A DNA stretch of 26,209 nt, from IMG/VR virus record IMGVR_UViG_3300032333_000126, positions 1 through 26,209 of that record; one strand, written 5' to 3'. The DNA comes from a virus. The notes beneath the pieces were generated by a model, which was not told the DNA's origin, did no database searches, and worked only from the letters and a program-made list of their open reading frames with translations. The translations under genes were made by a program, and so were the position numbers. Numbering within the stretch: position 1 is the stretch's first letter; every line of letters begins with the position of its first letter. This document shows, one piece after another, positions 3,304-19,234 of this stretch.

Positions 3304-3555
3304 ATGGGAGTTGTCAAAAAATATCAAAATCCATCCGGTGGCTTAAACGCCGCTGGACGTGCGCATTTTAAACGCACGACTGGAGCTAATTTAAAACCTC
3401 CAGCACCAAATCCGAAAACAAAGGCAGACGCAGGACGTCGTGCCTCTTTTTGTGCCCGTATGTCTGGCATGAAGGCTAAAAACACTTCATCTAAGACTGC
3501 AAATGACCCTAATAGCCGGATCAATAAATCCTTGAGAGCGTGGAACTGTAAATGA
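3304..3555 (+). CDS. Small conserved phage protein (DUF6321-like)
   Basis: This 83-residue, very basic protein has GGLNAAGRAHFKRTTGANLK, a proline-rich stretch, then RRASFCARMSGM and a C-terminal DPNSRINKSLRAWNC. The same blocks (GGLN-x-A-G-R, SFCARMSGM, SRINKALR-x-WNC) are familiar to me from small proteins of marine and other environmental phages, grouped, I believe, as DUF6321. Their function is not known. The cysteines in SFCARM and AWNC could bind metal or form a disulphide. It is the first gene of the late operon, behind the promoter at 3283. Confidence in the gene is high and in the family name moderate. Confidence 0.78.
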   Translation: MGVVKKYQNPSGGLNAAGRAHFKRTTGANLKPPAPNPKTKADAGRRASFCARMSGMKAKNTSSKTANDPNSRINKSLRAWNCK

Positions 3556-3769: not shown

Positions 3770-4141
3770 ATGCCTCAGAATTTAGACAATCGTAACCCAG
3801 TCCCGAAATACAATAGTAGAGCTTCATTTGATGCATATGCAAAAAAGAATAATGGGAAGCAAAAGGGTGGTTCATTTGTACATCCCGGAACACAAGATTT
3901 AGGTTCATGGAGTGGACAAGTGGATCGCGAACGAGGAGGAGATGGGCGATTATCAGATAGTCGCACACAAACACGCCACATGGCAGAAGATGCTATAACA
4001 ATGCGAGAGATGATGGGTAGTCGTAAAAAAACAATTATTAGGGGCACCCCATCCAAGAATACTAAACTTGGAGGAGCAGGAGCTGGAATGGCAGCTCTGC
4101 TTGGAATGAAGCTCTTAGGCAATAGAGGAAGAGGTAGATAA
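3770..4141 (+). CDS. Hypothetical protein with hydrophobic-RGRGR C-terminal tag (copy 1)
   Basis: The 123-residue protein is polar and basic (MPQNLDNRNPVPKYNSR at the N-terminus, then HPGTQDLGSWSGQ and a Met/Arg-rich stretch). It switches near residue 100 to a Gly-Ala run and ends MAALLGMKLLGNRGRGR. This ending closely resembles that of 4637-5047 and, more loosely, of 5052-6317 and 7325-11503. It looks like a short amphipathic or membrane-active helix with a basic tail. The AGGAAGG ribosome site precedes the ATG by about 12 bases. The last codons contain AGAGG, which can serve as the ribosome site for 4144. Possible role: internal virion or assembly protein (inference from position and shared tag). 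Confidence 0.65.
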   Translation: MPQNLDNRNPVPKYNSRASFDAYAKKNNGKQKGGSFVHPGTQDLGSWSGQVDRERGGDGRLSDSRTQTRHMAEDAITMREMMGSRKKTIIRGTPSKNTKLGGAGAGMAALLGMKLLGNRGRGR

Positions 4142-4143
4142 TT

Positions 4144-4629
4144 ATGCCCCGTAAACGTGATGTAGGTATGGCTGGTTCGTCTGATTACGCAACAGAGTAT
4201 TACACAACTGATGCGCAGGGCAATCCAGTTCGCAATGCTCGTACAATGCGACTTCAAGGTATGGATCCTGTAAAGCGAATCAAGGATTCTCAACGTCAAG
4301 AAGAGCGCATGGAAATGATGATGGATAACGGTGTCCTGCCAAGTAAGCGGGACCGCACTCGTGCCATTGCAGTTGGCGCATCAATGAATGAGCGTCGCGG
4401 ATACTATAGTGAAGGTAAGTTTCAAGACGCGATTAAACGCGCTGATAATAAGCGTCAAGATATTGCAATTGATCGTGGCGAGAGACAGAACGACATTATT
4501 GCACAACAGGCTCGACAGCGTTATGCTCGCCAACAAGTTGGAAAAAATGATTTTGCAGCATCACCAAATGCGCGAACCACTCCAACATTATCTAAACGCA
4601 TACAGGCAGCAAATAAAAAGAAAAAGTAG
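4144..4629 (+). CDS. Hypothetical basic coiled protein with internal MNERR motif
   Basis: A 161-residue protein of strongly charged, Gln/Arg-rich, probably helical sequence (KRIKDSQRQEERMEMMMDNG; IAQQARQRYARQQ), ending in four lysines. Around residue 81 a small hydrophobic-Gly patch runs into an Asn-Glu-Arg-Arg motif (AIAVGASMNERRG). The same patch, with 17 identical bases, recurs in the 6320-7321 protein (GAGAMNERRKR). It starts two bases after the previous stop, and GAGG upstream lies inside the codons for the preceding RGRGR tail. No known domain is recognised. It belongs to the block of putative internal virion proteins by position and composition. Confidence 0.65.
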   Translation: MPRKRDVGMAGSSDYATEYYTTDAQGNPVRNARTMRLQGMDPVKRIKDSQRQEERMEMMMDNGVLPSKRDRTRAIAVGASMNERRGYYSEGKFQDAIKRADNKRQDIAIDRGERQNDIIAQQARQRYARQQVGKNDFAASPNARTTPTLSKRIQAANKKKK

Positions 4630-4636
4630 GTAGACA

Positions 4637-5047
4637 ATGCCTCAAGAGCGCGATTACCCGTTATTTATGACGCCTACTGGTGCGCCAGCTAATAGCCACT
4701 TACCGACGCAAGCTGCAGTTGATAAGTGGCATTCTGCTGGATTAAAGTATCCTCAACCAGAACCGGGCGAAAGTCAGTACTTCTACGTACAGAGATTAGC
4801 TCGTGAATTAAGGGCTGCTAAAGCACAAAACCCTGATACGTTTAAAAGTCGTTTGGCTCCACAACCTACAAAGTCTAAGATTACTGCTAAGCCACAAGCA
4901 ACCCCAAAAGCAAAGTCTGCTGGCTTTACAGTGCCCCATAAAGAAGCGGCTCGTACAGGACGATACAACGTTAAGTCATTAGCTAGTGGATCAATGGCTG
5001 TTTTACTTGGCATGAAACCACTAGCCGATCGAGGTCGTGGGCGGTAA
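4637..5047 (+). CDS. Hypothetical protein with hydrophobic-RGRGR C-terminal tag (copy 2)
   Basis: A 136-residue protein beginning MPQERDYPLFMTPTGAP, with a central helical segment QYFYVQRLARELRAAKAQN, then a flexible Pro/Lys/Ala linker. It ends MAVLLGMKPLADRGRGR, matching the last 17 residues of 3770-4141 at 12 positions. The two endings use different codons at many positions, so this is not a recent DNA duplication but a maintained peptide feature. The N-terminal MPQ is also shared with 3770 and 11503. No known family is recognised. It probably works with its neighbours in the virion or in assembly (inference). Confidence 0.66.
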   Translation: MPQERDYPLFMTPTGAPANSHLPTQAAVDKWHSAGLKYPQPEPGESQYFYVQRLARELRAAKAQNPDTFKSRLAPQPTKSKITAKPQATPKAKSAGFTVPHKEAARTGRYNVKSLASGSMAVLLGMKPLADRGRGR

Positions 5048-5051
5048 TTAA

Positions 5052-6317
5052 ATGCAAGATGAGCAAACAGGGAATTGGCTTGATTTTTATCTTAAGATGC
5101 GAGCAGGATTAAATACGTCTGATCGCCGCAAGCTTGATAAAGAGTTTTTTGGATCAAACAGCCAAAAGCCACGTGTCACCAATACGTTGCAGACATTGCA
5201 ATTCAACAACAAACTATTAGGTCAATATAATAAACCGCTTTATGAGCTAATAGGTGATCCCAACACATATAGGAGTACATTGTATCCAAATGATGACTTA
5301 CCGAGTTTAATGCCAGAGTTGTTTTATGCTGGTAGATCAACATCATCAGACATCGATATTGATCAACATAATCGCGCAAAATCACTTATTACTAATGATT
5401 TACCAAGATATGTACATCCTCGTGATCGAGAAAATATGGAAAACATTGCTAATCCGGAATATGTTGCACGATATCCAAGATTATCCGAACACTTAATACA
5501 ACGTTTAGCGAAAGATAAATTAAATTACGAGACTGACGACCCAGAAGACAAATTAAGAAAATCAGTAATGGATGATAATCCAGCCGTAAGGCAAACTGTG
5601 GCGGATCTTAATTTTGAAGAAAAGTGGAAGAGACTACCACAAGAAGTTCGTAACGTGCTAAGTATGCGAAATAACTTATATAACGAACTTACTCCGGAAA
5701 CAAAAGATCTTATAAATCCACCAAAACAACCAGCTCCACCATTTAAACCACAGCGAGTTGACTGGGAAGAATCACGAACAAAAAATCTTGAAACAACGCC
5801 TGAAGCACAAGCTGCACTAGTACAACGCATACAACAGTTACAAGGTGGACAATTACCTATTGATTTGCAAGCTGGTATGGTTGAGCCATCTGTGGCTGGT
5901 GATTTGTTACAAAGAAGTGCAGTAAATAATCAGAATATTGCTGTAGTAAAAGAACGTATGGCTGCACGTAAAGAGGCTGTACCTTGGCTTGGTAGATTAC
6001 TGGCCCCTGAGTCTTCTACAGGAATGATAATGGATCCACGGTTAAGCCTTCCGGGATTTACAGAAGATAACAGAATACGTCCTAGGTTAGGAAGAAAAGA
6101 TCCAGTAGTCCGACAGATAGAGGATCAAAACAAGATTGTAAAACGTGGAACAACTCCATCAAAGAAAGAAACTGCTGCGCAAAAGAAACGTGCACTAGTT
6201 GACTTGGCATTCCTAGAGGAGTCAATTAAGAGTAAGCGTGGTGGTAATGTTGGAACATGGTTAATGAGTTTGCTTGGCGCAAACGAGTTGGCCAAAGAAA
6301 GGTCAAAAGGTAGATAA
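5052..6317 (+). CDS. Hypothetical 421-residue protein with C-terminal tag (copy 3)
   Basis: A polar, mostly helical-looking protein. It begins MQDEQTGNWLDFYLKMRAG, has acidic and amide-rich stretches through the middle, a proline-rich segment near residues 222-237 (PPKQPAPPFKP) and a basic region near the end (KKETAAQKKRALVDLAF). It closes with LMSLLGANELAKERSKGR, nearly the same as the end of the 1392-residue protein (LMSLIGYNEIAKERGKGR). No enzyme motif, signal peptide or long membrane segment is visible. The gene starts four bases after the previous stop, and AAAGG in its last codons lies 15-20 bases upstream of the next gene. Likely a structural or ejection-type protein by context; function unknown. 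Confidence 0.66.
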   Translation: MQDEQTGNWLDFYLKMRAGLNTSDRRKLDKEFFGSNSQKPRVTNTLQTLQFNNKLLGQYNKPLYELIGDPNTYRSTLYPNDDLPSLMPELFYAGRSTSSDIDIDQHNRAKSLITNDLPRYVHPRDRENMENIANPEYVARYPRLSEHLIQRLAKDKLNYETDDPEDKLRKSVMDDNPAVRQTVADLNFEEKWKRLPQEVRNVLSMRNNLYNELTPETKDLINPPKQPAPPFKPQRVDWEESRTKNLETTPEAQAALVQRIQQLQGGQLPIDLQAGMVEPSVAGDLLQRSAVNNQNIAVVKERMAARKEAVPWLGRLLAPESSTGMIMDPRLSLPGFTEDNRIRPRLGRKDPVVRQIEDQNKIVKRGTTPSKKETAAQKKRALVDLAFLEESIKSKRGGNVGTWLMSLLGANELAKERSKGR

Positions 6318-6319
6318 CT

Positions 6320-7321
6320 ATGGCTGGTGAAATTGATAAACAAAAAATGACTAACGCTAAACGCGCAAATACTCGTGAAGTAAATGCTGGTAAGCGACAA
6401 GCTACACCACCTTCTAAACAAGAACCGGGAAAACGTTATGTTCCTAAAGGTATTTTAACGGACCCAACTACTGGCAGAGGTGATCACAGGATCAACAATA
6501 TTACCGGAGAGATAATTAAAGAAGATGTAATGCGACGACGTGCCGAAACAAGTCGTCGAGATGCAGCCACTGGAGTTGGTCATAGAATCATTTCGCCGTC
6601 TGATCTAGCACGTGAAAGTATGGGCAGGTTACCAGCTGCGCAACAACAAATGGGGCGACGTGCTGCTGGCTATACCAAAGGACAAGACGTTAAAGCTGCT
6701 AAGCCACAACTAGATAAAAATAAACCATACAGTCGTACCGCCAGTGGAGAGGTTGTAGGTAAAGATGGAAAGATTAGCACGCCAGCTGGAAATGCTACTC
6801 GAAAGGCAGCGGGTGATCAAGGGTCGCGAGGAAGAGCTGCTGTACGACGTATACAGCAAGCTGGTGCTAGACCAACAGATGCATTTGCTGCAGAATTAGC
6901 AAATCGTCGAAAATCTGCTAATAATCAGGTCGAACTAGCAAATAGTCGTGCTGTCAGTGCGCGACTTGCAGCACAAGCAAAGTATGGTCGAGATGCTATG
7001 CAATCAAGGCGAGATGCCAATGCATCCACAGCCGCAGCTGCAGCTAAACGCCCATCACAGAGCGCATTGGCTGTAGCAAGGGCAAAGTCTGCAGTAAACA
7101 ACGCTGCTGGAGCAGTGAAGTCTGGTGCTCGCGGAAAAGTTATTCCATTTGGAGTAGGCACTATTATTGGTGCAGGAGCAATGAATGAGCGTCGCAAGCG
7201 AGACGTAAACAGTGCTGGTATGCGAGGATTTAATGCTGGTAAAGTAGCAGGAAGACAAACAACTAGTACTGGCTCAAAAGCTCCAATTGTACGTCCAAAG
7301 GGTCAATCACGAGGTAAGTAA
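6320..7321 (+). CDS. Highly basic Ala/Arg/Lys-rich protein, histone-like in composition
   Basis: A 333-residue protein with many Lys, Arg and Ala and few hydrophobic residues. Examples are NAKRANTREVNAGKRQ near the start, MGRRAAGYTKGQDVKAAKPQ, and a long Ala/Arg helix region around residues 185-265 ending in AAAAAKRPSQSALAVARAKS. Near residue 275 a hydrophobic Gly patch (VIPFGVGTIIGAGA) runs into MNERRKR, sharing 17 identical bases with 4144-4629. It ends in RGK, a short version of the basic endings nearby. Such composition suits nucleic-acid binding, for example an internal head protein bound to packaged DNA, but no fold is recognised. Start and stop abut both neighbours within 3 bases. Confidence 0.65.
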   Translation: MAGEIDKQKMTNAKRANTREVNAGKRQATPPSKQEPGKRYVPKGILTDPTTGRGDHRINNITGEIIKEDVMRRRAETSRRDAATGVGHRIISPSDLARESMGRLPAAQQQMGRRAAGYTKGQDVKAAKPQLDKNKPYSRTASGEVVGKDGKISTPAGNATRKAAGDQGSRGRAAVRRIQQAGARPTDAFAAELANRRKSANNQVELANSRAVSARLAAQAKYGRDAMQSRRDANASTAAAAAKRPSQSALAVARAKSAVNNAAGAVKSGARGKVIPFGVGTIIGAGAMNERRKRDVNSAGMRGFNAGKVAGRQTTSTGSKAPIVRPKGQSRGK

Positions 7322-7324
7322 ACC

Positions 7325-10300
7325 ATGGCATCTGCGTTAATGAATATGATGGTTGATGAAGAGAAAAAGACGGGTAACGCAGGACAACCTGCAACTCCGG
7401 GTGCTCCACAAGCATCTGGTCAACCAAGTACACCGCAGATGCCACCACCTACACCTAATGTTGGAACACCAGCTCAAGTAGAGAATGGTGGAGTTGGAGC
7501 ACAACCTCAATCACAGGCTCCTGCTGGACCAGATCCACTAAGTTTATTAGCTCTTGGACAGGGTCCTATTGCTCCTTCCCGCGCACCACAGGCGCGTCGT
7601 GGAGTACAACGACGTGGTGCTGCTCCAACACCAGCACCAACGCCAGCTCCAGCTCCAGCTCCAGCTCCAGTTGAGCAGACACCAACGTATGTTGATCCGT
7701 CAATTGAAGAAGGATTTGTTCGTGATGATCCAACGCGTAAGCCAGTACGTGGACAAGCTACACCCGGTTTAAATACTCCTGTTATTGGTGCGGATGCAGC
7801 GTATAACGCTCAGACACAACAGATTGAACAGCAATTTAATACTGGGGCAATTACATCGCAAGAGCGTGATCGACAGTTAGGTGCATTACAGCAAAATAAG
7901 GATGCCGCATCTGGTTTACCAAGTGCAAATAAAGTTATATCGACGGGTCTTCCCGGAGACACATTATCTGACACCGACAGGCTTTATTTGGCATTTGACC
8001 CTATTGCAAATGCGTATGACCCAGAGCGTCAATCTGATGCTCAGATGGGTTTTAATATCGACATTAGTGACCGCATCTTAAAGCAAGTGCAATCGCCCAC
8101 TGCGTCAATTAACCCGGCAATGGCGATCAGGAATGTATATAAAGAATACTCGCGAAAAATTGCTGCACTAGAGGCACAGAAGGCAGCCATCCTGCGCGGT
8201 GATACATCAGAAATATTAAAGGTAATGCCAGACATTGCACCAGACGGATTTATGGCGCAAATGTTACAAGAATTTCCGGGTGCCAATATCCATCAAACAA
8301 TGGCTAGGGCACAGAACGAAACTGGGTGGCAAGCAGATTCAGAACGAGTTAATCAGTACGCTACGGATGCAGTTGCCAGCATTGATCAACAGATAGCTGA
8401 AATACAAGATAGTGATGGATATCGTGCTTTATCAAATGTAAACGACATGATGGGCACAGTAACAGGTGCGCGTGGACAGCAATTAGCAAAATCACTTATT
8501 GGTTATTCGTTATATCTGCAAAATCCAGATTCCCAGCAAGGACGAGAAGCTCGCAATTATGCGCTCGCTGCACGTATGGCAGGAGCAAAGGGTGTTCCAT
8601 TTACAGAAAGTGCGGTTCGTTTTGAGGACATGGTCTCAAAAGTACCGGGACTTGAACGTATATTTACCCGTGGAGACATCAAAGGCATCTTCACTGATAT
8701 CCAGCGCACAGCTAGGCAGGAAACATATGTTGAGCAATTAATCGGTGCTTCTGGGTCTAGTATGTTGCGCCAAGGTAGCACTGGCCAGAAGTTAAGCCCT
8801 GCCCGTAAAGGTGAACAAGGTCTTATTTCTGCATTCCTTGACCCAGTTATTAATCCAGTTGATGGTGCACCAAGACCATTATGGGCATCCGGCCTTGTCC
8901 GTAATATATCTAGAATTGTTCCTATTATTGACCCAAATTTTGAACAAATAATGAACGCAGCTGATGGCAGAGCAAAACAAGTAATGCTTACCAATGCTGC
9001 TGCAGGATATCAAGTTAAATCAAATTTGGAGCAGTTGTTTAAATTTGACTACTCTGATAATCCAGATCAGTTTGCAATTGACTCGGTAAATGTCACAGAA
9101 GCATTAAAAGCAGGTGATCCAATTGCTGCAGCAAAAACACTTGCACCATACTCAAGTACTGATCAATTAATGCAGTTGTTCGGTGAAGACGTTGTTACGC
9201 AAAACAACATTGTTGGTGCAAAACCATCCTCATTATTGCCTTACGATTTGACAAAGGCTACTGGGTTTGCTGGTGCTAGAAAAGCGCGATTAGAAGCTTA
9301 TCGCGCCCGTATGGAAGGTCAAGCACGTGGTCAACAACGTATACAAGGAACCAACTTTAAAATTACATCTGGTAAATCTGTAATAGCAGCACTTGGTGCA
9401 GCGTATGGAGTGCCAGCTCCACTGCTAGGATTTAATGCAAATAACGACGATATACGAAATGCATACAGCACATTTTCAGGTGGATTAAACGAAGAATCAG
9501 CTACTCAACAAAGAGGGATGATTGCTTCCGATCTTGAGTCTATGTTGCGTCCAGCGATGAATGACAAAGGTGAATATATAACGGATCAAGTTTGGAGTGA
9601 TAGTGTAGAAGCAATTGACGCAGCCGTATGGCAACTTGAAAATAATATTCAAACAGGAGTTGTTGCATCTGATCGCATCGAAAGTGCCAAGTTTTTATTA
9701 GGTGAGTTAAAGACAGCCCGTGACAATGTACGCGCAGATCTAGAAACTGGAATTGAAATTGGTGGTGAGCGAGGATACTTGTTTGGCCAGACTGGCGGTA
9801 AGGTCGATTACAGTAAGCCTATTAGAGCTGCATCGGGAACAGGACGAACTGCACAAGCTGTTGATATGTTACAAGCATGGGTAAGTAATACACCCGGCGT
9901 TGATGTCAATCGATATTTTAAGACAAACGCTACTACAGGAGGGCGTGGTTCAGCATCACGTGTCGTTGGATATGCCGTCACAGAAGATGGAACACCAATT
10001 ACGACTAAGCCAGTACGTGCAACTAGTGCATCTGACGTTGTGCGTGTTCCTGTTTACAGGCGAGTTGGCAGCGATTACGAACCAGTATTAAATGCTGCTG
10101 GCCAACAGGCGTATCAGATACAGCCACAGGATCTTACAGTTGAAATATCATCTAAGATATTAGGTAGTTCTAATAAGGATCAAACAACTGTTGGTGTTGA
10201 CAAAAATTATGTGCGAATGCAAATCAATGATTTGAAATCACACATCGAGAAAATTATTTACGGCACTGATACGGAAGCACAGCGAGAATTTAGTCGCATC

Positions 10301-11503
10301 TCTGGATTAGATGTTTATGACACCATGCGTGTCAATGGACAAATGGCGGATGTTCTCCGAGGGGGGAAAATAAATACAGCTGAGTTTACATCTTACTTGC
10401 AAAATTTAAACAAATATCAAGGACAACAGCTCATTGGGTTCTTAAATACATATGGCGAGAATCTAGCGTTGGCCCCAGATGCAAGAGTTAGATGGGCAAT
10501 GAATGCATCTAGCACACGGGGCAAAGCGACAGATATTGCTGATCGCGTAGCAGATACTATCGAACGAGAAGCTAAGGGTGAGCGTCGCTCTTACGGAAAA
10601 TGGCAACTAAGCACTGGATGGCAGAGTTTAACGGCAACTGCAAAAAAGGTTGTCTACGATTTAGACATGAATATGTCATATGATGCAGAAGGTGGTCCTG
10701 ATGCACGTGCTGCTCAAGTAGAACGTATTGTAAAGGCTGTTCTCGAATCACATCCATATGCACGAGATGGGCAAGATGGAGCATCTATGATGATGCGCGA
10801 ACAGTTGAGGCAGTATGCAGGTGCGTTGTATGACGATGATGCAGAAGCAAGAATCAGGGTTCACAAAGATACACAATCTTTAATTGATCAACAGGCTAAC
10901 CAAGAGGCAGAGTCATATGCTGACGAGGATGTTGCCACAGCAATCCGCAGTAAGAGGATTAATACTGTTAAGCCTCAAGCTGCGCCAAATGTTAGTAATG
11001 AGGAAAAACTACGTATAGCGTCTGAAGCATTCCAAGCGAAAAGCGCACAGAATAGACGGCAGCAGATGAGAGCCGTAACACTATTCTTTCCTAAACTGGG
11101 ATGGATTACTGCACAGGGCAATCAAGATATGCTCGATGTCTGGAAGGACATTGATTTATCTAAGGTGCCTTCACAACAGGCAATTGAAACTCTTGAAGCT
11201 ACGTCAAAGTCGTATAAGCCTGCACGCAGAGAAGAAATTAAGCAGGCGATGGAGAAGTCAAATAAAACGGGAGCCGTAAGAATAGTTAAAAGTGGAGAAA
11301 AAGTTAACTTGCGACGCCCTCCTGTTACTCCACCACCAGCTCCTGAACCTGTCAAAACTAGAGTAACCACACAATTACCTCGCACAGGAGTTCAGATGCC
11401 AAAGGTTAACACTCTTGGCAAGGGTGTTAAAAATGCTGGTCTTGGATTGATGAGTCTGATTGGTTATAACGAAATTGCAAAAGAACGAGGAAAGGGACGA
11501 TAA
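7325..11503 (+). CDS. Giant 1392-residue putative internal virion / ejection protein (tag copy 4)
   Basis: The largest gene in the window. Residues 15-140 are low-complexity Pro/Ala/Gln sequence, including an Ala-Pro repeat run. From about 150 the sequence becomes a long, mostly helical, soluble region with evenly spread charged and amide residues. No polymerase, lysozyme, transglycosylase or protease motif is apparent. The C-terminus returns to Pro-rich sequence (PPVTPPPAPEPVK) and ends LMSLIGYNEIAKERGKGR, the tag shared with 5052-6317. Size, position in the late operon and lack of a tape-measure gene elsewhere suggest a large protein ejected with DNA, as in other short-tailed phages (inference). 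GAGGAAAGGG in its last codons is the ribosome site for 11503. Confidence 0.7.
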   Translation: MASALMNMMVDEEKKTGNAGQPATPGAPQASGQPSTPQMPPPTPNVGTPAQVENGGVGAQPQSQAPAGPDPLSLLALGQGPIAPSRAPQARRGVQRRGAAPTPAPTPAPAPAPAPVEQTPTYVDPSIEEGFVRDDPTRKPVRGQATPGLNTPVIGADAAYNAQTQQIEQQFNTGAITSQERDRQLGALQQNKDAASGLPSANKVISTGLPGDTLSDTDRLYLAFDPIANAYDPERQSDAQMGFNIDISDRILKQVQSPTASINPAMAIRNVYKEYSRKIAALEAQKAAILRGDTSEILKVMPDIAPDGFMAQMLQEFPGANIHQTMARAQNETGWQADSERVNQYATDAVASIDQQIAEIQDSDGYRALSNVNDMMGTVTGARGQQLAKSLIGYSLYLQNPDSQQGREARNYALAARMAGAKGVPFTESAVRFEDMVSKVPGLERIFTRGDIKGIFTDIQRTARQETYVEQLIGASGSSMLRQGSTGQKLSPARKGEQGLISAFLDPVINPVDGAPRPLWASGLVRNISRIVPIIDPNFEQIMNAADGRAKQVMLTNAAAGYQVKSNLEQLFKFDYSDNPDQFAIDSVNVTEALKAGDPIAAAKTLAPYSSTDQLMQLFGEDVVTQNNIVGAKPSSLLPYDLTKATGFAGARKARLEAYRARMEGQARGQQRIQGTNFKITSGKSVIAALGAAYGVPAPLLGFNANNDDIRNAYSTFSGGLNEESATQQRGMIASDLESMLRPAMNDKGEYITDQVWSDSVEAIDAAVWQLENNIQTGVVASDRIESAKFLLGELKTARDNVRADLETGIEIGGERGYLFGQTGGKVDYSKPIRAASGTGRTAQAVDMLQAWVSNTPGVDVNRYFKTNATTGGRGSASRVVGYAVTEDGTPITTKPVRATSASDVVRVPVYRRVGSDYEPVLNAAGQQAYQIQPQDLTVEISSKILGSSNKDQTTVGVDKNYVRMQINDLKSHIEKIIYGTDTEAQREFSRISGLDVYDTMRVNGQMADVLRGGKINTAEFTSYLQNLNKYQGQQLIGFLNTYGENLALAPDARVRWAMNASSTRGKATDIADRVADTIEREAKGERRSYGKWQLSTGWQSLTATAKKVVYDLDMNMSYDAEGGPDARAAQVERIVKAVLESHPYARDGQDGASMMMREQLRQYAGALYDDDAEARIRVHKDTQSLIDQQANQEAESYADEDVATAIRSKRINTVKPQAAPNVSNEEKLRIASEAFQAKSAQNRRQQMRAVTLFFPKLGWITAQGNQDMLDVWKDIDLSKVPSQQAIETLEATSKSYKPARREEIKQAMEKSNKTGAVRIVKSGEKVNLRRPPVTPPPAPEPVKTRVTTQLPRTGVQMPKVNTLGKGVKNAGLGLMSLIGYNEIAKERGKGR
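7645..7668 (+). repeat. Four tandem copies of AGCTCC coding for an Ala-Pro run
   Basis: AGCTCC is repeated four times without change (7645-7668), flanked by degenerate Ala-Pro/Thr-Pro codons from about 7621. It encodes a stiff Ala-Pro linker in the N-terminal part of the 1392-residue protein. Perfect 6-bp repeats could vary in number between strains. Confidence 0.85.
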
Positions 11504-12459
11504 TGCCACAAGATTACATAAACAATGTATTTGGTACATATCAAGAACCAAAGCGAACTACTCGTCCTCCGATTCAGGCACTAGGTGCGCATATACCACC
11601 TAGTATGACAGGCGCTAATCCATTTTTTGCTGTGCCAGTAATGTCTGCTGCGCAAGGTCAACTTGCTAAAGGTGGAAAGGTTAGCAGGGGGGCTGGACGT
11701 GTACTAGGCGAAGGCCAGATGTACTATGATTCTGCAGTTCAGTTATTGCGATTACTTGATTCTGATATTCCAGAGTCAGAACGCGCAAACGCATTAGCTA
11801 TGATTGGAACTCCATTAGGTGTCAATATGGCTAAAGACCTAGCAATGGCAAGAGCATCGAAGGGAAAGCCACAGACAGCTGCTGCACTTAACACTGCTAC
11901 TGACTTTGGTAACATCCCCGTAGGATCTGAATTATCTAAGTTATTAACTATGCCATTAGGGAAAGACAATCCCAGCATAGCTCAAGTAATTCATCAACTC
12001 GGTCAAGTCATACCGGGCATGCCAACTCATCAAAACTTAATTGAATTAGCTGCAAAGCATAATGTAGCAAGGCAACCATGGGTAAAAAAATTAAAAACTG
12101 GATTAGAGTACTCAACTGAAAACGTAGGTGATGTGTTAGATGAAGACGAAATGATGCTACAGTTAGCGCGGTTATCTGACAATAAAAATGCGCCAGTGTC
12201 AAACGCGCTTGGTAAATACGCACCGTCAAATAACAGTAAAACAGCAAAAACTAATGCTCAATTTTTAAATGACATTGGTAAATTAATGAAATTAAAATAC
12301 AACATTGTAAATGCCGTAGGTCCAAAACTGGAACAATTTGCAACAAATCCTTCCGGAACTATAGCTTCTGCTACTAAACCAACTGGAAAGCCTATACGAC
12401 CAACGCCAATAGGCATGGGTAAACTTCCAACAGCGTCAGAATTGAGAATGCAAAGATAG
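11503..12459 (+). CDS. Hypothetical 318-residue structural-block protein
   Basis: It begins MPQDYINNVFGTYQEPKR, the MPQ start seen in two other proteins of this block. The ATG overlaps the final A of the previous stop codon. Residues 75-130 are helical (YDSAVQLLRLLDSDIPESER; ANALAMIG), the middle has LTMPLGKDNPSIAQVIHQLG, and residues 200-230 include an acidic DVLDEDEMMLQLARL. The C-terminal 50 residues are Pro/Thr/Lys rich and end ELRMQR, so it lacks the RGRGR tag. No known domain is recognised. Position between the giant protein and the small terminase gene, with translational coupling on both sides (TAATG and TAGTG), implies production with virion proteins. Confidence 0.68.
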   Translation: MPQDYINNVFGTYQEPKRTTRPPIQALGAHIPPSMTGANPFFAVPVMSAAQGQLAKGGKVSRGAGRVLGEGQMYYDSAVQLLRLLDSDIPESERANALAMIGTPLGVNMAKDLAMARASKGKPQTAAALNTATDFGNIPVGSELSKLLTMPLGKDNPSIAQVIHQLGQVIPGMPTHQNLIELAAKHNVARQPWVKKLKTGLEYSTENVGDVLDEDEMMLQLARLSDNKNAPVSNALGKYAPSNNSKTAKTNAQFLNDIGKLMKLKYNIVNAVGPKLEQFATNPSGTIASATKPTGKPIRPTPIGMGKLPTASELRMQR

Positions 12460-13190
12460 TGGAAACAGAAGACCGCGTCAAACTGCTTGGTAAAGCTAAA
12501 GTAAAACTTTGTTCGTCAAAGAATATGCATGGTGAGTTATGCAACAACATAGCTGTGAAAGGAAGAGATTACTGTAAATACCATGGCGGTAAGGCATTAG
12601 CTGGACCAGATAATCCTGCGTTTAAAACTGGATTATGGTCAAAGCAACGTCGTAGATTTTCTAGTGTTGCTCCAAAGTTATTGTCACGTATAGATGAATT
12701 GCGGGAAGACCCTGACTTATTCAGTCTTAAGGACGACGCAGCATATTTAACTGCATTGATGGATGTTCGCGCTGAAGCTGCAAGTAATGGAATTTCACTA
12801 GAGCATTATGAATCTATAAGAGATCAAATGAGCGTGTGTAACGCGACATTGAACACAGATGAGTTTAAGCCAGCGTTTAAAGAATTAGGACGCATGATCA
12901 ATGAAGGTATTGATGTGTATCGTGCAAGCCAAGATGTTGTTCAGTTAATTGAAAAACGTACTGACATCGTGGAGGCAGAAGCACGTATGATGCACACGAA
13001 AGCCTACACATTGGAAGTCGATCAGGCATATAGTTTTGCAATGCAAATCCTAAAGATTGTCAAGGGTGCTGTTCGAGATGCAAATGAATTAACTGCTATC
13101 AAATCTGGTTTTGCCAAACTACTCAAGCAGTATCAAGAAGAAGATATACAGGACGCGGAAATAATAGATGAAGACAGTAGCGAGCAGTAG
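12459..13190 (+). CDS. Putative terminase small subunit with zinc finger (HGG type)
   Basis: This 243-residue protein has an N-terminal zinc-binding pattern: C18, C28, then DYCKYHGG (C39, H42). It is followed by GPDNPAFKTGLW, a block common in phage proteins encoded directly before the large terminase. The rest is helical (RIDELREDPDLFSLKDDAAYL; MQILKIVKGAVRDANELT) and ends in an acidic DAEIIDEDSSEQ. Small subunits bind phage DNA ends and regulate the large subunit's ATPase during packaging. GTG at 12459 is the start, overlapping the previous TAG by one base. It overlaps TerL by 23 bases. The role rests on position plus the Cys-His HGG block; a helix-turn-helix is not obvious. Confidence 0.7.
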   Translation: METEDRVKLLGKAKVKLCSSKNMHGELCNNIAVKGRDYCKYHGGKALAGPDNPAFKTGLWSKQRRRFSSVAPKLLSRIDELREDPDLFSLKDDAAYLTALMDVRAEAASNGISLEHYESIRDQMSVCNATLNTDEFKPAFKELGRMINEGIDVYRASQDVVQLIEKRTDIVEAEARMMHTKAYTLEVDQAYSFAMQILKIVKGAVRDANELTAIKSGFAKLLKQYQEEDIQDAEIIDEDSSEQ

Positions 13191-14910
13191 AGCCACACCG
13201 CGAGCTTTCAAAAAGTTTGTGCGACCAACAAAGCCACTTACAGTAGCATTACTAGAAGCACTGTCAGAGGAATTAGATACTGCTATTGAGATGGGTGATT
13301 ATGACAGTGGCTTGGCAACTGCTCTTCCCGGATACGATTTAAACTACGAGGATTGGCTACGTGTATATGCTCCGCATGCAGCGTCATCTACATTAGCAGA
13401 GCATCATCACCGGGCTTGGCAGTGGGCTGAGGCCATAGAGCCTCACAAGTTCTGTTCATCACTTATTGAATGTTGGTTTCGCGGTGGTGGTAAATCAACT
13501 ACGATGGAACTTATCGTAAGTAGATTAGCAGTTAAAGCGACTCGCAGATTTGCTGTGTACGTGTGTGCGACGCAAGACATGGCTGATAGGCACGTTCAAG
13601 ATATTGCTACAGCAATGGAGCGGTGTGGCATTGAGCGAGCCGTGAATAAGTATGGATTTTCTAAGGGATGGAGTGCTAGTAAATTACGCACAGCAAATGG
13701 TTTTAATATCCTTGCCTTTGGTCTTGACACTGGCGCTCGTGGTGTTAAGTTGGATCACCTGCGACCTGACATGATTATATTGGACGACATTGATGAGCTT
13801 GACGACTCGGTGAATGCGGTAGATAAAAAGATACGCACAATAACACAAACCATTCTCCCGGCAAAAAGCACTGACTGTGCAGTTGTGTTTGTGCAGAACA
13901 GGATTCACGCCAACTCGGTTATGTCACAGGTGCTAAGTGGTGAACTAGACATGCTGCAAGATCGCATACAGTCACCTATTGTTCCCGCAGTACAGGATTT
14001 AGAGTACACGACCTACGAGCGAGAAGATGGTCGTCTTGGATACAGGATTACTGGCGGAACACCGACGTGGCATCACAAAACAATAGAAGTATGCCAGCAC
14101 GAAATTGACACATATGGTCTCTTGTCATTCTTGAGAGAATGCCAGCACGAAGTTGGTGTTGGTGGATTATTCTTTCCTGACTTTAGGGAGTATAGTTCCG
14201 ATGGAAAGCCATGGCATGTTGTTGATCACGTAGAGATAGAACCATGGTGGCGTATTTGGGCAAGTCATGACTTTGGCACTGGAGCACCTGCTTGCTTCCT
14301 TCTGTACGCAAGTGATGACAGAGAAAATGTTTACGTCATTGGTGAAATGTACGAGGCCGGACTGGTCAGCAGTAAACAAGCAGATAAGTGTTTGGAATTA
14401 CTTGAATCAAAAAAACTAGCGTCTCCAGTAAACATTAAAATGCGAGACGGACAATGGAACACAAAACTAGAAGCTTTAGCGTTTGACTGGGCAAATACTT
14501 TCCCACCAATGAAGCCTGAAGAACGCATTGGTGAATATCCTGTAGAGGTATGGTGGGAAAAGGGTTTACCAGCCGTTCGGGCAGTAAAAGATAGAAAAGC
14601 TGGTTGGAGACGCGTGAAAGAATGGTTAGATTCTACGGATGTTGTTAACGGTGTACCTAAGCCAAAACTGCAAATTGTCCGTGGTGCATGTCCTAACTTA
14701 ATCAAGCAATTGAGCAATACGATGGCTCACCCACGTGACCCTGAAGACATTGACAGTGGGACAAAGAACGACCACGCCATTGATAGTTTTAGGTACGGCG
14801 TAATGTGGCGCGAGTATCCTGTTAAATGTCCCGAACTAGCAGATAAAATGCCATCGGCGGAAAAACATATTCCTACATGGATGAAGCAGAAAGATAATAA
14901 GTGGTTATGA
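13168..14910 (+). CDS. Terminase large subunit (packaging ATPase/nuclease)
   Basis: TerL pumps DNA into the prohead and cuts it. The 580-residue protein has the expected two parts. The ATPase has a Walker A FRGGGKST at residues 104-111, a segment AVYVCATQDMAD after it, and a Walker B MIILDD at 202-207, with FVQNRIHANS (241-250) in the position of the coupling motif. The RNase H-like nuclease has candidate metal ligands D368 (ASHDFG), D440 (AFDWA) and D535 or D539 (NDHAIDSFRYG). Length is usual for the family. It overlaps the small-subunit gene by 23 bases, so coupled translation is likely; the upstream GGAA is a modest ribosome site. The small gene at 14907 overlaps its stop as ATGA. Confidence 0.95.
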   Translation: MKTVASSRATPRAFKKFVRPTKPLTVALLEALSEELDTAIEMGDYDSGLATALPGYDLNYEDWLRVYAPHAASSTLAEHHHRAWQWAEAIEPHKFCSSLIECWFRGGGKSTTMELIVSRLAVKATRRFAVYVCATQDMADRHVQDIATAMERCGIERAVNKYGFSKGWSASKLRTANGFNILAFGLDTGARGVKLDHLRPDMIILDDIDELDDSVNAVDKKIRTITQTILPAKSTDCAVVFVQNRIHANSVMSQVLSGELDMLQDRIQSPIVPAVQDLEYTTYEREDGRLGYRITGGTPTWHHKTIEVCQHEIDTYGLLSFLRECQHEVGVGGLFFPDFREYSSDGKPWHVVDHVEIEPWWRIWASHDFGTGAPACFLLYASDDRENVYVIGEMYEAGLVSSKQADKCLELLESKKLASPVNIKMRDGQWNTKLEALAFDWANTFPPMKPEERIGEYPVEVWWEKGLPAVRAVKDRKAGWRRVKEWLDSTDVVNGVPKPKLQIVRGACPNLIKQLSNTMAHPRDPEDIDSGTKNDHAIDSFRYGVMWREYPVKCPELADKMPSAEKHIPTWMKQKDNKWL

Positions 14911-15059
14911 TGGTTTTGCTAAGTGTGTGCGCTATTATTTGCACGATATGTTTGATTCTGCAGTCCATATTGTTTTACGGGCTGGTAAATCATTTACGGC
15001 AGATAAAAGAGGAACGATTATTAGTACAGACAATCGTTTCAAATGAAAGGTGGATTTGA
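14907..15059 (+). CDS. Hypothetical 50-residue single-helix membrane protein
   Basis: A short ORF fills the gap between terL and portal. ATG at 14907 overlaps the terL stop as ATGA, and its TGA ends three bases before the portal ATG. The product begins MMVLLSVCAIICTICLIL and continues with a hydrophobic stretch to about residue 27 (LFYGLV), then a charged tail RQIKEERLLVQTIVSNERW. This is one clear N-terminal membrane helix with a basic/acidic cytoplasmic-type tail. No strong Shine-Dalgarno sequence is visible, so translation probably depends on terL. The size and topology resemble spanin-like, holin-like or other tiny phage membrane proteins, but there is no specific family match. The perfect fit between neighbours is good evidence that it is a real gene. 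Confidence 0.62.
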   Translation: MMVLLSVCAIICTICLILQSILFYGLVNHLRQIKEERLLVQTIVSNERWI

Positions 15060-15061
15060 AA

Positions 15062-17338
15062 ATGTCTATAGATATTAATAACTTGATGCAGTCTGCTATG
15101 TCTAAGACATTAATGAATAAGCAGCCAAAAGTGTCCGCTTTTGCAAAACCAAATTCAAATGGAACACAAGGGAGTTTTCCGTTAACCGACAACAAATTGG
15201 AAAACCCTAACAATTTAAAGCTTGATCTTAATGCAAAAGATTGGCGAGTAATCCCAAAAGATCAGCCTGAAGAAGCCAAAAAAATAACCGCGTTTATTAA
15301 AGAGCAGTTTGATTTATCTTATAGGGCGCGTCAAGAAATGGAACTAGAGTGGGTTATGTCCACTGCATTTTTTGAGGGCCGTCAATGGTTTCGTATCAAT
15401 AGTCAAGCTCGTAACCTTGAGAGCTTGATGCACGAGAAAGAACCAAACAGATATTTGACTGTAAATAAAATGCGCCCCTTGATTGACGGTGTAGTAGGTA
15501 AATTAACGCAATGTGCGCCAGATTCAAGTGCTGTACCAATTAGTAATAACCCAGTTGATTTAATGGCTGCCGATGAGGCCAACTATATTGTTAATCACTA
15601 TAACCGAAAGTTTGATCGCGAGACACAAACAAAAGAACGTGTTCGATGGGCTTGCGTTAGCGGTACATCATTTTTAAAAATATTCTGGGATGCAAGCAGA
15701 GAACAAGTTGTCCCACAGATGGATGCTACTGGCTCCGAAATCATTGGTCATACGTCAATGAAAGTAGGGGATATTGTAGAGCAGATTCTTCCTGCGTTTG
15801 ATGTTTACTTTGATCCAATGGCTAAGAGGGATGATGACATCCGTTGGTTGATTCACGCAATGGTCAAACCATTATCATGGTTTATTGACAAGTATGGCGA
15901 TCAAGGAAAGTTAGTAAAACCTGACGGTCAAACAGGTGCAAACGCGGGTTATGTCGATACGTATCTTGATGGAACTAATGGAAATGGTCGCGGATGGGTT
16001 CCTCCATCTCCAAGTAATTTAGGTAATCAAGATACTAAAAAACAAGCTGCTGTTGTTTACGAATACTGGGAAAAACCATCGGCTCTGTATCCGTCTGGTC
16101 GCTATATCGTAAGCACAAACAGTTGTTTGTTGTACGGAGGACCGTGGCCATATGAGAAAAAGGATGCGTTCCCATTTATTCCTTTGCGCTGGCAACCGCG
16201 TAGTGGAACACCATACGGCTATAGCTTGGGATGGGATCTATGCTCATTACAATTAACGTATAACCGAATTTACTCTAGACTCGTAGAACAATTTGAAAAT
16301 CAAAAAGACTACGTTCTAGCAGAAAATTTAAGTGGTATAGGCGCGGATGCTTACGATAATTCGAGTGACAGTATTGATGACAACAATCGAATTTACCGTC
16401 GTATCAACTACAAGCGCGGTAGTCATCCACCACAAATACAGAGAGCACCCGGCATTGGATCAGATCTGTTCCCATTATTGCAGATGATTGAAAAAGACAT
16501 GATGGATGTAGCTGGTCTACACGACGTCAGTCAGGGACAGGCAAGTGCTGGAACACCAGCTGAGTCAGTGCGTTTATTGCAACGCAGTGACAACACACAA
16601 CATAGTTTTATCCGAGCCGACATTGAGATTAGTGCATCTAAAATTAAAGAGTGGGAAGTGTCTTTAATTCAGCAGTTTGCTATTGTTCCATTTGTTGGAA
16701 ATATACAAGGCAAGATGTTGCCACAGGATCAAATTCGACAAGGCGTAATGCGATTTGATGCATTGCGTAGTGGTGGGCAATATCGCATTGTCTATATTCC
16801 CGGATCATCAATGGATGATAGCCCTGACCAAAAGTTGCAAAAACTTGCTGCGTTACGACAGATGGGAGTATTTGGAGACCCTATGGATCCAAGTACCAAC
16901 AGGCTATTTATTGAACTTGCAAATATCCCGCATGCATCTCGCATCTACGAGCACTTAGATCAGCAAGCTCAAAAGATGGAGATGATGCAACAGCAACAGG
17001 CAGCAATGATGCAACAGCAAGCTGCTATGGAAGCACAGGCTAAACAGGAACAGTTTAATCCAGAGGTTGAGCAGATGAAGGTTCAGCTGGAAGTGCAAAA
17101 ACAACAGGCCATTATTCAAGCTAAGCTTGAGGCCGATATATCTCTTGCAGCTGCTAAGGCTGGTATTGATGCTCAACAAAACGAAGAGTATGCAATGACC
17201 GAAATAGGTAAGTCTCAAGCAATGGCTCCTGAAGGACCAATGCCAGTACAACAACCTACTCAACAGCCAATGATGCAGCAGCAATCGATGTTGCCACAAT
17301 CGGGTGGGCAGCAGCCAGCAAACACTGGCATGTTTTAA
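15062..17338 (+). CDS. Portal protein (P22-type, podovirus)
   Basis: The portal forms the ring at the capsid vertex through which DNA enters and leaves. The 758-residue protein has features of the P22-like portal group: an N-terminal helix region with YRARQEMELEWVMSTAFFEGRQW, then YLTVNKMRPLIDGVVGKL, DVYFDPMAKRDDDIRWLIHAM, a central IPLRWQPRSGTPYGYSLGWD and VAGLHDVSQGQASAGTPAESVR. A long C-terminal Gln/Met-rich coiled region (about residues 635-720) is comparable to the barrel of P22 gp1. The ATG at 15062 is preferred because AAAGGTGGA lies 8 bases upstream; a GTG at 15050 overlaps that site. It follows terL and precedes scaffold and capsid, the usual order. Confidence 0.88.
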   Translation: MSIDINNLMQSAMSKTLMNKQPKVSAFAKPNSNGTQGSFPLTDNKLENPNNLKLDLNAKDWRVIPKDQPEEAKKITAFIKEQFDLSYRARQEMELEWVMSTAFFEGRQWFRINSQARNLESLMHEKEPNRYLTVNKMRPLIDGVVGKLTQCAPDSSAVPISNNPVDLMAADEANYIVNHYNRKFDRETQTKERVRWACVSGTSFLKIFWDASREQVVPQMDATGSEIIGHTSMKVGDIVEQILPAFDVYFDPMAKRDDDIRWLIHAMVKPLSWFIDKYGDQGKLVKPDGQTGANAGYVDTYLDGTNGNGRGWVPPSPSNLGNQDTKKQAAVVYEYWEKPSALYPSGRYIVSTNSCLLYGGPWPYEKKDAFPFIPLRWQPRSGTPYGYSLGWDLCSLQLTYNRIYSRLVEQFENQKDYVLAENLSGIGADAYDNSSDSIDDNNRIYRRINYKRGSHPPQIQRAPGIGSDLFPLLQMIEKDMMDVAGLHDVSQGQASAGTPAESVRLLQRSDNTQHSFIRADIEISASKIKEWEVSLIQQFAIVPFVGNIQGKMLPQDQIRQGVMRFDALRSGGQYRIVYIPGSSMDDSPDQKLQKLAALRQMGVFGDPMDPSTNRLFIELANIPHASRIYEHLDQQAQKMEMMQQQQAAMMQQQAAMEAQAKQEQFNPEVEQMKVQLEVQKQQAIIQAKLEADISLAAAKAGIDAQQNEEYAMTEIGKSQAMAPEGPMPVQQPTQQPMMQQQSMLPQSGGQQPANTGMF

Positions 17339-17359: not shown

Positions 17360-18211
17360 ATGTCCGAAGAGATGGTGACACGAACCGCTGATTCGCCAGC
17401 AGCGGCAACGGGCAATGTTGGTGGTGCGATGTTAGATTTCGTTAGGGAAAGCGCCGGTCCCAGCGAAAGTGGAAATGAGGCGTTAACAACCTCCACAGAC
17501 TCTAGTTCGCAATCATCAGATATTGGGTTTGATCAAAATTCGTTACAAGAGCGAGTAAAACAGAGACTTCTTGAAAACGTGGCTCCGGAAAAAACTCCCG
17601 GAAATGTGCCATATGAACGTTTTAAAGAAGTTAATGATGAAGCAAAACAGCTAAGAGCTGCGCAGGAAGCGTACTCTAAATGGGCTGATGTGATTCGGCA
17701 GTTTGAAGATAGCGGGTATCAATCTGCAGCTGATGTGCAAAAAGCTTATGCTGAGCAACAACAGCAATATCAGGAAAACCAAATACGCGAGCGATGGAGT
17801 CAAGAAGTTCAGCAGAACTATATGGATCCAGAACTAGCTCGCGTACAAGCCGAATCTGAAATTCAACGAATGCGTTATGACCAAGTAGTTGGTCAGATGA
17901 ATTCTTATATGGTTGCACAGCAACGCCAGCAAGCATTTGAGCAATATCCATATGCATCTAGAGCACAGGATATTGTAGATAACCTAATTGGTCAGGGAGT
18001 ATCACCGCTAGATGCTGCTGCTGCTGTACACCGTCAGGTGTCAGGTCTTGTTGAATCGCTAGTACCAGAATTAATGAATATGGTTACTACACAACAGGGC
18101 ACACCAACACCAATTGGTGGTGGAGACTCAGCTAACGCTACTGTCCCACCGCCACGCAATTCACAACAAACTGGATTCGGTGGAATCACTAGATTACTAG
18201 GGATCCGGTAG
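17360..18211 (+). CDS. Putative scaffolding protein
   Basis: This 283-residue protein lies directly between portal and capsid. The N-terminal 80 residues are disordered in composition (Ala, Ser, Thr, Gly), followed by NVPYERFKEVNDEAKQL, a phrase common in phage scaffold-like proteins. A Gln/Glu-rich helical section (KAYAEQQQQYQENQIRERW; VQQNYMDPELARVQAESEIQ) comes next, then a small C-terminal tail. Scaffolds guide coat assembly and leave before maturation. Position, length, acidic/amide-rich coiled composition and absence of an enzymatic motif agree with that role. AAAGG lies 10 bases upstream of the ATG. No prohead protease motif is visible here or nearby. Confidence 0.72.
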   Translation: MSEEMVTRTADSPAAATGNVGGAMLDFVRESAGPSESGNEALTTSTDSSSQSSDIGFDQNSLQERVKQRLLENVAPEKTPGNVPYERFKEVNDEAKQLRAAQEAYSKWADVIRQFEDSGYQSAADVQKAYAEQQQQYQENQIRERWSQEVQQNYMDPELARVQAESEIQRMRYDQVVGQMNSYMVAQQRQQAFEQYPYASRAQDIVDNLIGQGVSPLDAAAAVHRQVSGLVESLVPELMNMVTTQQGTPTPIGGGDSANATVPPPRNSQQTGFGGITRLLGIR

Positions 18212-18220
18212 GAGAAATAA

Positions 18221-19234
18221 ATGGCTATCGATTTCAACGGTGCTTTAACACTCGCAGATCAAGCTGTCCTTTCTAATGATCCTCTTGTAAAAGAGATCAC
18301 CATGTCTTTGCACCAGACGTGGAACGCAATCAAGGACATCCCTTTTTACACATCGCCTTCCTTACGGCAGGTTGGAGTTCGTTACACTAACGAACCCGGC
18401 ACTATCCCGACTCCGACGTGGTCAACCATCAACGGTGAACCAAACGCAGTCAAGGGCAAGCCAAAGTCGTACGAAGAGCAGATGTATCTCATCCGTAATA
18501 AGATTACGGTTGACTCTCGTTTGCTTGATCAGCCAAACAACATCATTGATCCTGTAGAAGCACAGATTAAGATTTTTATGGAGGGTTTTGCGTACGATTT
18601 TAATGACAAGTTCATTAATAACGATCCGACATCGGCAACAGCTGGCAATAGCCCAGACTGTTTCCCCGGTATTCGCTATCGTCTTGAGAACCGTGCGCAA
18701 TTCGATATCCCAACAGACTGTTTAATTGCACCAGCTTCTACAGCAGCTTCCTTAAACGTTGCAGGAACGTTTAACATGACTGTTGGAAACGGTACGCTTT
18801 CTGCAATGCAGGAACTGTTTGATAACCTTAATGCTCCTGACGGATCCGGCATTGTTCTGTATATGAACGAAGAAACAAAGCGACGCTTTGAATCTGTCAT
18901 CCGCATGCTTGGAGCAGGTACTGGTTTTGAAACACAACGTGATGCATTTGATCGCGGTGTTGAGTCTTACAAGAACGCAAAGATTCGTACGGTAGGACGC
19001 AAGACTGATGGTTTAACACCAGTCATTACTGCACCTGCTGGATTTAACGATATCTACGCGGTTCGTTATGGTACTGGATATGTACAGGGATGGCAGTCTG
19101 GTCCATTTAAGCCTGAATACCTAGGCAAGTCTAAGGAAAACGGAATTATGCATAATGTTCTGTTTGACTGGGGCATGGGTCTTTGGATGCCTAACGTACG
19201 TTCACTTGCACGTTTACGGTTAGCAACCAGTTAA
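18221..19234 (+). CDS. Putative major capsid protein
   Basis: A 337-residue protein following the scaffold, with a strong AGGAG ribosome site. Its sequence is evenly mixed alpha/beta without low complexity. It contains TYTNEPGT-like and YEEQMYLIRNKITVDSRLL segments, a DKFINNDP turn, the GIRYRLENRAQFDIPTD strand region and a C-terminal MHNVLFDWGMGLWMPNVRSLARLR that fits the final strand of phage coat proteins. Coat subunits of this size are usual for HK97-fold podoviruses. I infer the role from context, length and high-expression signals; the fold itself cannot be read directly. The alternative would be a minor head protein, but no other gene in the window is a better coat candidate. Confidence 0.82.
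   Translation: MAIDFNGALTLADQAVLSNDPLVKEITMSLHQTWNAIKDIPFYTSPSLRQVGVRYTNEPGTIPTPTWSTINGEPNAVKGKPKSYEEQMYLIRNKITVDSRLLDQPNNIIDPVEAQIKIFMEGFAYDFNDKFINNDPTSATAGNSPDCFPGIRYRLENRAQFDIPTDCLIAPASTAASLNVAGTFNMTVGNGTLSAMQELFDNLNAPDGSGIVLYMNEETKRRFESVIRMLGAGTGFETQRDAFDRGVESYKNAKIRTVGRKTDGLTPVITAPAGFNDIYAVRYGTGYVQGWQSGPFKPEYLGKSKENGIMHNVLFDWGMGLWMPNVRSLARLRLATS

Follow-up and report, generated by a model that had tools for sequence, protein, structure and literature searches.

To our knowledge, only a few phages offer a detailed picture of how internal and ejection proteins are selected for the capsid, and we know of no obvious signal shared by the ejection proteins of P22. Several short peptides that bring proteins into a shell have been described. 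In phage T4, the capsid-targeting sequence (CTS) found on the internal proteins and on Alt directs otherwise unrelated proteins into the forming head (PMC3012670, PMC5694885). It is N-terminal, 10–20 residues long, and cleaved by the prohead protease. Encapsulins are neither phages nor assembled with a scaffold. One encapsulin cargo-loading peptide binds within a hydrophobic pocket on the luminal side of an HK97-type shell (PMC7355545). This peptide is short, C-terminal, and carried by unrelated cargoes encoded close to the shell gene.

Another example is the scaffold of phage P22. Its hook binds the N-arm of the coat through R293 and K296, which contact acidic residues there (PMC12005531), and P22 capsids have been loaded with cargo fused to the C-terminal part of the scaffold (PMC9962691). 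The P22 scaffold, gp8, ends in KAKLKGIR, a basic coat-binding element, whereas the ejection proteins gp7, gp16, and gp20 lack this ending. Finally, a terminal peptide of the P1 protein DarB is sufficient to load this capsid-injected protein (PMC9024508); that signal is N-terminal, and the other Dar proteins show no consensus for it. In the literature, searched as open-access PMC text, no description was found of a C-terminal tag common to a scaffold and its cargo.

The locus described here lies in a 26.2-kb virus record, called the window below. The tagged proteins with their tags, and the terminase, portal, scaffold, and capsid genes, all lie on its plus strand. Its terminase, portal, putative scaffold, and major capsid genes are found at 13.2–19.2 kb: the terminase large subunit (13168..14910; phrog_38), a P22-like portal protein (15050..17338; PF16510, phrog_156), a helical putative scaffold protein of 283 residues situated between the portal and major capsid genes (17360..18211), and the major capsid protein (18221..19234; phrog_212, E = 2.3e-26). 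Before the terminase is a cluster of genes, four of which encode proteins with a common C-terminal tag.

Like the T4 CTS, the tag is one short peptide common to several unrelated proteins of one phage, for which an internal location is inferred. Unlike the CTS, it is C-terminal in every case, hydrophobic-basic, phage-specific, and scaffold-like. A scan of 20 window proteins picked up no recognisable protease, and nothing seen spoke for or against cleavage of the tag. The likeness to encapsulins is that the tag is a short C-terminal peptide on unrelated proteins encoded close to the shell gene. However, the shell here belongs to a phage capsid, as the terminase, P22-like portal, and major head families indicate, rather than to an encapsulin nanocompartment, and the tag joins a core common to the scaffold with a phage-specific basic half. 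The putative scaffold ends in ...TRLLGIR, similar to P22 gp8, but here natural proteins share the scaffold-like ending. The tag thus resembles known capsid-loading peptides yet belongs to no compared class, since it is not N-terminal and its shell is a phage capsid.

Inspection by eye showed no such shared ending in the cultured phages HTVC103P, RHph_N3_13, CRP-235, Rowa, and Shocker, which have distant terminase, portal, or capsid similarity, nor in the model phages T7 and P22. As a separate observation, an untagged 333-aa protein of the window (6320–7321) ends in TGSKAPIVRPKGQSRGK, the T7 (L152) internal protein gp14 ends in STTKAPIVAAKGTKTGR, and gp15 has KRAPIVAATKAR near its end. They may be due to chance or may represent a further short motif at the C-termini of internal proteins.

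Tagged Proteins of the Window

A sequence-only reading of this DNA had claimed that proteins of 123, 136, 421, and 1392 residues share an ending, and each ending is present exactly at its coordinates. The 123-aa protein (3770..4141), which has no database family, ends in MAALLGMKLLGNRGRGR (4088..4138). Its body is 85% identical to L092_115, a protein of a related phage that has another tag. The 136-aa protein (4637..5047) ends in MAVLLGMKPLADRGRGR (4994..5044), and its family was found, tagged, in all eight phages compared. The 421-aa protein (5052..6317) ends in LMSLLGANELAKERSKGR (6261..6314); its homologues L094_419 and L096_408 are tagged as well. Three other proteins of the same cluster, of 161, 333, and 318 residues, lack the tag ending.

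The fourth protein is a giant of 1392 residues (7325..11503), likely an internal or ejection protein. Its tag, LMSLIGYNEIAKERGKGR (11447..11500), is borne by a C-terminal tether (residues 1315–1392; 11267..11500) that is predicted to be disordered, with an AlphaFold2 pLDDT of about 30–50 over model residues 836–913. The giant has no Pfam, PHROG, or PDB match and no recognised homology to a known ejection protein of the T7/P22 cluster. A fold search with Foldseek gave a best E of 0.26 in the PDB, and in BFVD only a relative from an uncultured phage. The protein evolves fast: in phages with capsid proteins of about 85–90% identity, its own identity is down to 25–33%, and its length varies from 1353 to 2109 residues across relatives. 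We infer that the tagged proteins are virion proteins.

To compare endings, the last 25 residues of 29 window proteins were aligned locally in all pairs, with 20,000 composition-matched shuffles as the null. The top-scoring pairs were 1392/421 (80) and 136/123 (66), against a shuffle maximum of 51. Scores across these pairs were 41, 37, 34, and 29 (p = 0.0005 to 0.03). Because the cross-pair scores are weaker, the tags are best described as one loose motif that comes in two close pairs, not as four equal copies.

The bodies of the four proteins had been called unrelated, which is borne out by blastp (best E = 0.1). Simple duplication of the tagged genes is thereby ruled out. Likewise, the codons were said to differ, and only 18 of 62 agree at identical aligned residues, compared with 19.0 expected from codon usage. 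Codon sharing is thus near random, which argues that selection acts mostly on the tag peptide.

Phage-Specific Tags in Relatives

With the capsid protein as query, 80 IMG/VR loci of 62–99% identity were collected, and the regions around and upstream of the terminase were taken in for 36 phages. In each of the eight phages compared from the window's subgroup, the giant has its ending in common with one to four smaller proteins of unrelated sequence, and this ending differs between phages. For instance, the tags of L094 end in ...GSAMSGKKR, ...GSAMGTKKR, ...GSAMGNKKR, ...GTAMQGRKR, and ...GSAMGGMKR, and those of L096 in ...GAMSKKNR, ...SAMSNKNR, ...GVMTGRNR, and ...GAMSERNR. L097 has three copies of ...QGKR, and L092 has ...AIANRRAGK, ...AIAARRANK, and ...ITQRRGGQ.

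The similarity between giant and small-protein tags peaks within genomes. In an exact permutation over all 8! assignments, a test that is exact although the sample of eight phages is small, the diagonal scored 361, and the permutations averaged 231 (p = 5e-5). This concertedness persists without the last 6 residues (p = 4e-4) or the last 8 (p = 0.002). A control segment of 36 residues just upstream (−60 to −24) showed none (p = 0.65). Among about 240 ORFs outside the pre-terminase cluster in six phages, no convincing tag was seen, apart from one chance motif match. In the phages so surveyed, the tags occur only within the cluster that precedes the terminase.

What is surprising is this concerted, lineage-specific change in unrelated proteins, which calls for an identifiable receptor.

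Modularity and Copying

The tag behaves as a module. The 85% identity between the window's 123-aa protein and the 115-aa protein of L092 extends over 91 residues and is followed by different tags, each matching its own phage. At the tag boundary, nucleotide identity between the two genes falls from about 0.9 to 0.48. The 421-aa family is tagged in all three phages where it was found, just as the 136-aa family is in all eight. L094 and L096 are close relatives, with 145- and 130-aa proteins that are 93% identical. The penultimate tag residue is K in all five tags of L094 and N in all four of L096, where the N codon is AAC in two genes and AAT in two.

Concerted endings might also arise if gene ends were copied within a genome, by gene conversion or shuffling of 3' modules, with little selection on the peptide. 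The drop in nucleotide identity at the tag boundary between phages fits such copying, and some pairs share more codons than expected: L099 115/129 (16/20, 8.1 expected), L096 1414/408 (10/12, 4.2 expected), and L097 140/127 (9/13, 4.7 expected). Codon agreement between tags overall, however, is 146 of 356 compared with 125 expected, and in the window it does not exceed expectation. Synonymous sites of most tags are saturated while the peptides are still alike, which argues that selection holds the peptides. Copying in place of peptide selection is therefore decidedly improbable, and recent DNA copying as the full cause of the likeness is ruled out by the near-expected codon agreement. Given the excess in some pairs, gene-to-gene copying may still be the route by which a new tag spreads.

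Translation Signals at Gene Ends

In about 20 of 26 tagged genes, a Shine-Dalgarno-like sequence of the next gene falls within the tag codons, and AGR arginine codons are 5-fold enriched in the tails (31:16 vs 665:1799, p = 4e-8). The tag could then be a by-product of translation signals, in which a purine-rich gene end serves the next gene and happens to be read as a K/R/G-rich tail. Tags whose next gene has its Shine-Dalgarno sequence elsewhere are equally basic, however (+2.7 vs +2.4), so this duty tunes the tail codons but does not create the tag. A signal at the codon level is also unable to produce the hydrophobic part, the window tags differ in codons, and the concertedness persists when the final 6 or 8 residues are left out. 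As an origin of the tag, this explanation is highly improbable. The signal is real as a codon-level overlay and insufficient as a full explanation.

Two further observations concern these junctions. The start MPQ (ATGCCACAA) is common among cluster proteins, as at 3770, 4637, and 11503 in the window and in the clusters of L094 and L099. In L099, a repeated AAAAGGAGATAGATATGCCACAA links the KRR-stop of one gene to the start of the next. Because this repeat spans the stop/start junctions, gene ends and starts have a translation-initiation module in common.

Hydropathy of the Tag

Each tag consists of a segment of about 12 hydrophobic or small residues followed by a basic tail. Such a C-terminus might enter or join the host membrane at ejection, in the manner of tripartite sorting tags. 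The hydrophobic-then-basic order agrees with this, and some giants of distant relatives come near transmembrane hydropathy (1.52 in L115, 1.38 in L121). In the eight phages, though, the best 19-residue Kyte-Doolittle mean is at most 1.07 in all 26 tags. A transmembrane anchor was rejected because of this low hydropathy and because about 12 hydrophobic residues are too short for a transmembrane helix; by the same Kyte-Doolittle measure, the tags lack the transmembrane-length hydrophobic helix that LPXTG, PEP-CTERM, and similar sorting tags require. Moreover, a generic anchor needs no concerted peptide identity, and the tag core is scaffold-like. A membrane-active tail is thus quite improbable, and insertion of the tag into a membrane is unlikely.

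Likeness to the Putative Scaffold

The scaffold was assigned by position and helicity only, as no family model names the gene. Its C-terminal peptide in the window, GGITRLLGIR (18179..18208), has a core similar to the tag core. Where the corresponding gene, lying before that of the major capsid protein, could be seen, it ends in [LIFV]-[ST]-x-[LM]-[LM]-G-I in nearly all of the 80 relatives, mostly continued by a basic residue, R or K. A long helix and a P/Q/N-rich linker precede this peptide.

The tag core of the small proteins matches the conserved scaffold C-terminus (SxLLGI followed by R). A PSSM built from putative scaffold C-termini only (xSRLLGIR) was used to score other proteins. At 14 bits or more, all eight matches were C-terminal; four were residual scaffold copies, and the rest were cargo. 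At 8 bits or more, 30 of 80 matches were C-terminal, compared with 8.3% of positions expected. Among the cargo matches are a giant of 1746 residues (ITQLLGI, 21.9 bits) and small proteins from L115, L096, L097, and L102. Cargo tags are thus similar in sequence to the scaffold end of their own family by a profile that contains scaffolds alone. The match is strong for small proteins of L094 and L096–L099 and for the giants of L004 and L008. It is moderate for the window's four tags, which score 2.5, 5.0, 1.5, and 0.0 bits and rank in the top 0.06–0.4% of internal windows. Giants' tags mostly score below those of small proteins. A regular expression for the core, chosen post hoc, is 14-fold denser within 20 residues of C-termini, and 28 of its 46 C-terminal clusters belong to proteins other than scaffolds.

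Changes in the phage-specific tail are not mirrored by the scaffold end, whose sequence remains conserved. They are not obviously mirrored by the coat either, which is about 85–90% identical among these phages. Hence the coat alone does not explain the concertedness. No L/M co-variation of scaffold and cargo cores was evident by eye across lineages, which fits a conserved shared site without proving one. An AlphaFold2 model of a scaffold-coat read-through had a pLDDT of 49.6, too poor for usable docking.

Beyond the window's subgroup, most lineages have at least one small basic protein with a shorter scaffold-like ending. Examples are MSKLMGVKR, ISKMLGVRK, ITKALGIKK, and MSNLMGMKK (L101, L110, L111, L115, L117, L122, L127, and L103–L105).

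A Putative Procapsid-Loading Peptide

The sequence-only reading had proposed a targeting, procapsid-recruitment, or membrane-insertion tag. A common targeting tag is strongly supported by its C-terminal position, its concerted change in each phage, its modularity, and its restriction to genes before the terminase. Procapsid recruitment is the best supported of the options, since the tag core is similar to the C-terminal end of the putative scaffold. Membrane insertion and the comparison with tripartite sorting tags are unsupported.

The reading preferred here, which we hold about equally likely to be right or wrong, is that the tag, at the end of a flexible tether, serves as a C-terminal procapsid-loading peptide and in part mimics the end by which the scaffold would bind the coat. 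It draws on the position of the tag at the end of a tether, its hydrophobic-basic composition, its scaffold-like core, and its confinement to the pre-terminase cluster. The hydrophobic core would dock in a pocket on the inner coat face, or on the coat-scaffold lattice, that is also used by the scaffold peptide, and the basic tail would supply electrostatic contacts. The tethered cargo, comprising the giant and small basic proteins, would thereby be enclosed during assembly and later stay with the DNA or be ejected. The phage-specific half of the tag would fit a partner that differs between phages; alternately, the tags might bind each other in a common internal core. Docking and loading are established in P22 and encapsulins, and are proposed here by analogy.

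Mutual binding could also be the whole function of the tag. In this model, a homotypic helical or glycine-zipper segment gathers the giant and the small proteins into an internal core (ejection) complex. All tags of one phage would then have to stay compatible, so that concerted change would be explained without any change of receptor, and several tags do look G/A-rich. On the other hand, the likeness of the core to the scaffold C-terminus is left unexplained, the window's giant and mid-sized tags form a pair separate from the small tags, and the model of the giant shows no confident fold for the tag. We consider this model unlikely.

If loading is the function, the tags may further constitute a lineage-specific code. 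Here cargo tags would change together to match the procapsid receptor of their lineage, with a core borrowed from the scaffold, a proposal that is tentative and somewhat doubtful. If true, it would keep the cargo of a phage out of the capsids of a co-infecting relative, and it would provide a natural set of orthogonal capsid-loading peptides.

A C-terminal tag recognisable in sequence means that likely capsid cargo of uncultured phages can be listed. Since the tag is linear, recruitment is testable by a single reporter fusion. Capsid engineering could also draw on the relatives as a natural series of cargo tags, each with its matching shell.

Other Features of the Window

The gene in the small-terminase position (12459–13190) encodes an N-terminus rich in Cys and His (CSSKNMHGELCNNIAVKGRDYCKYHGG) and has a weak PHROG match to small terminase (E = 0.02). 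Upstream of the tagged genes, an 83-aa protein (3304–3555) with the ending SRINKSLRAWNCK matches the C-terminal end of phrog_4689, 727, 3477, and 10346. These families differ widely in length, so the protein resembles a C-terminal domain that moves between phage proteins. Pelagibacter phage HTVC103P also encodes a protein that ends in this way.
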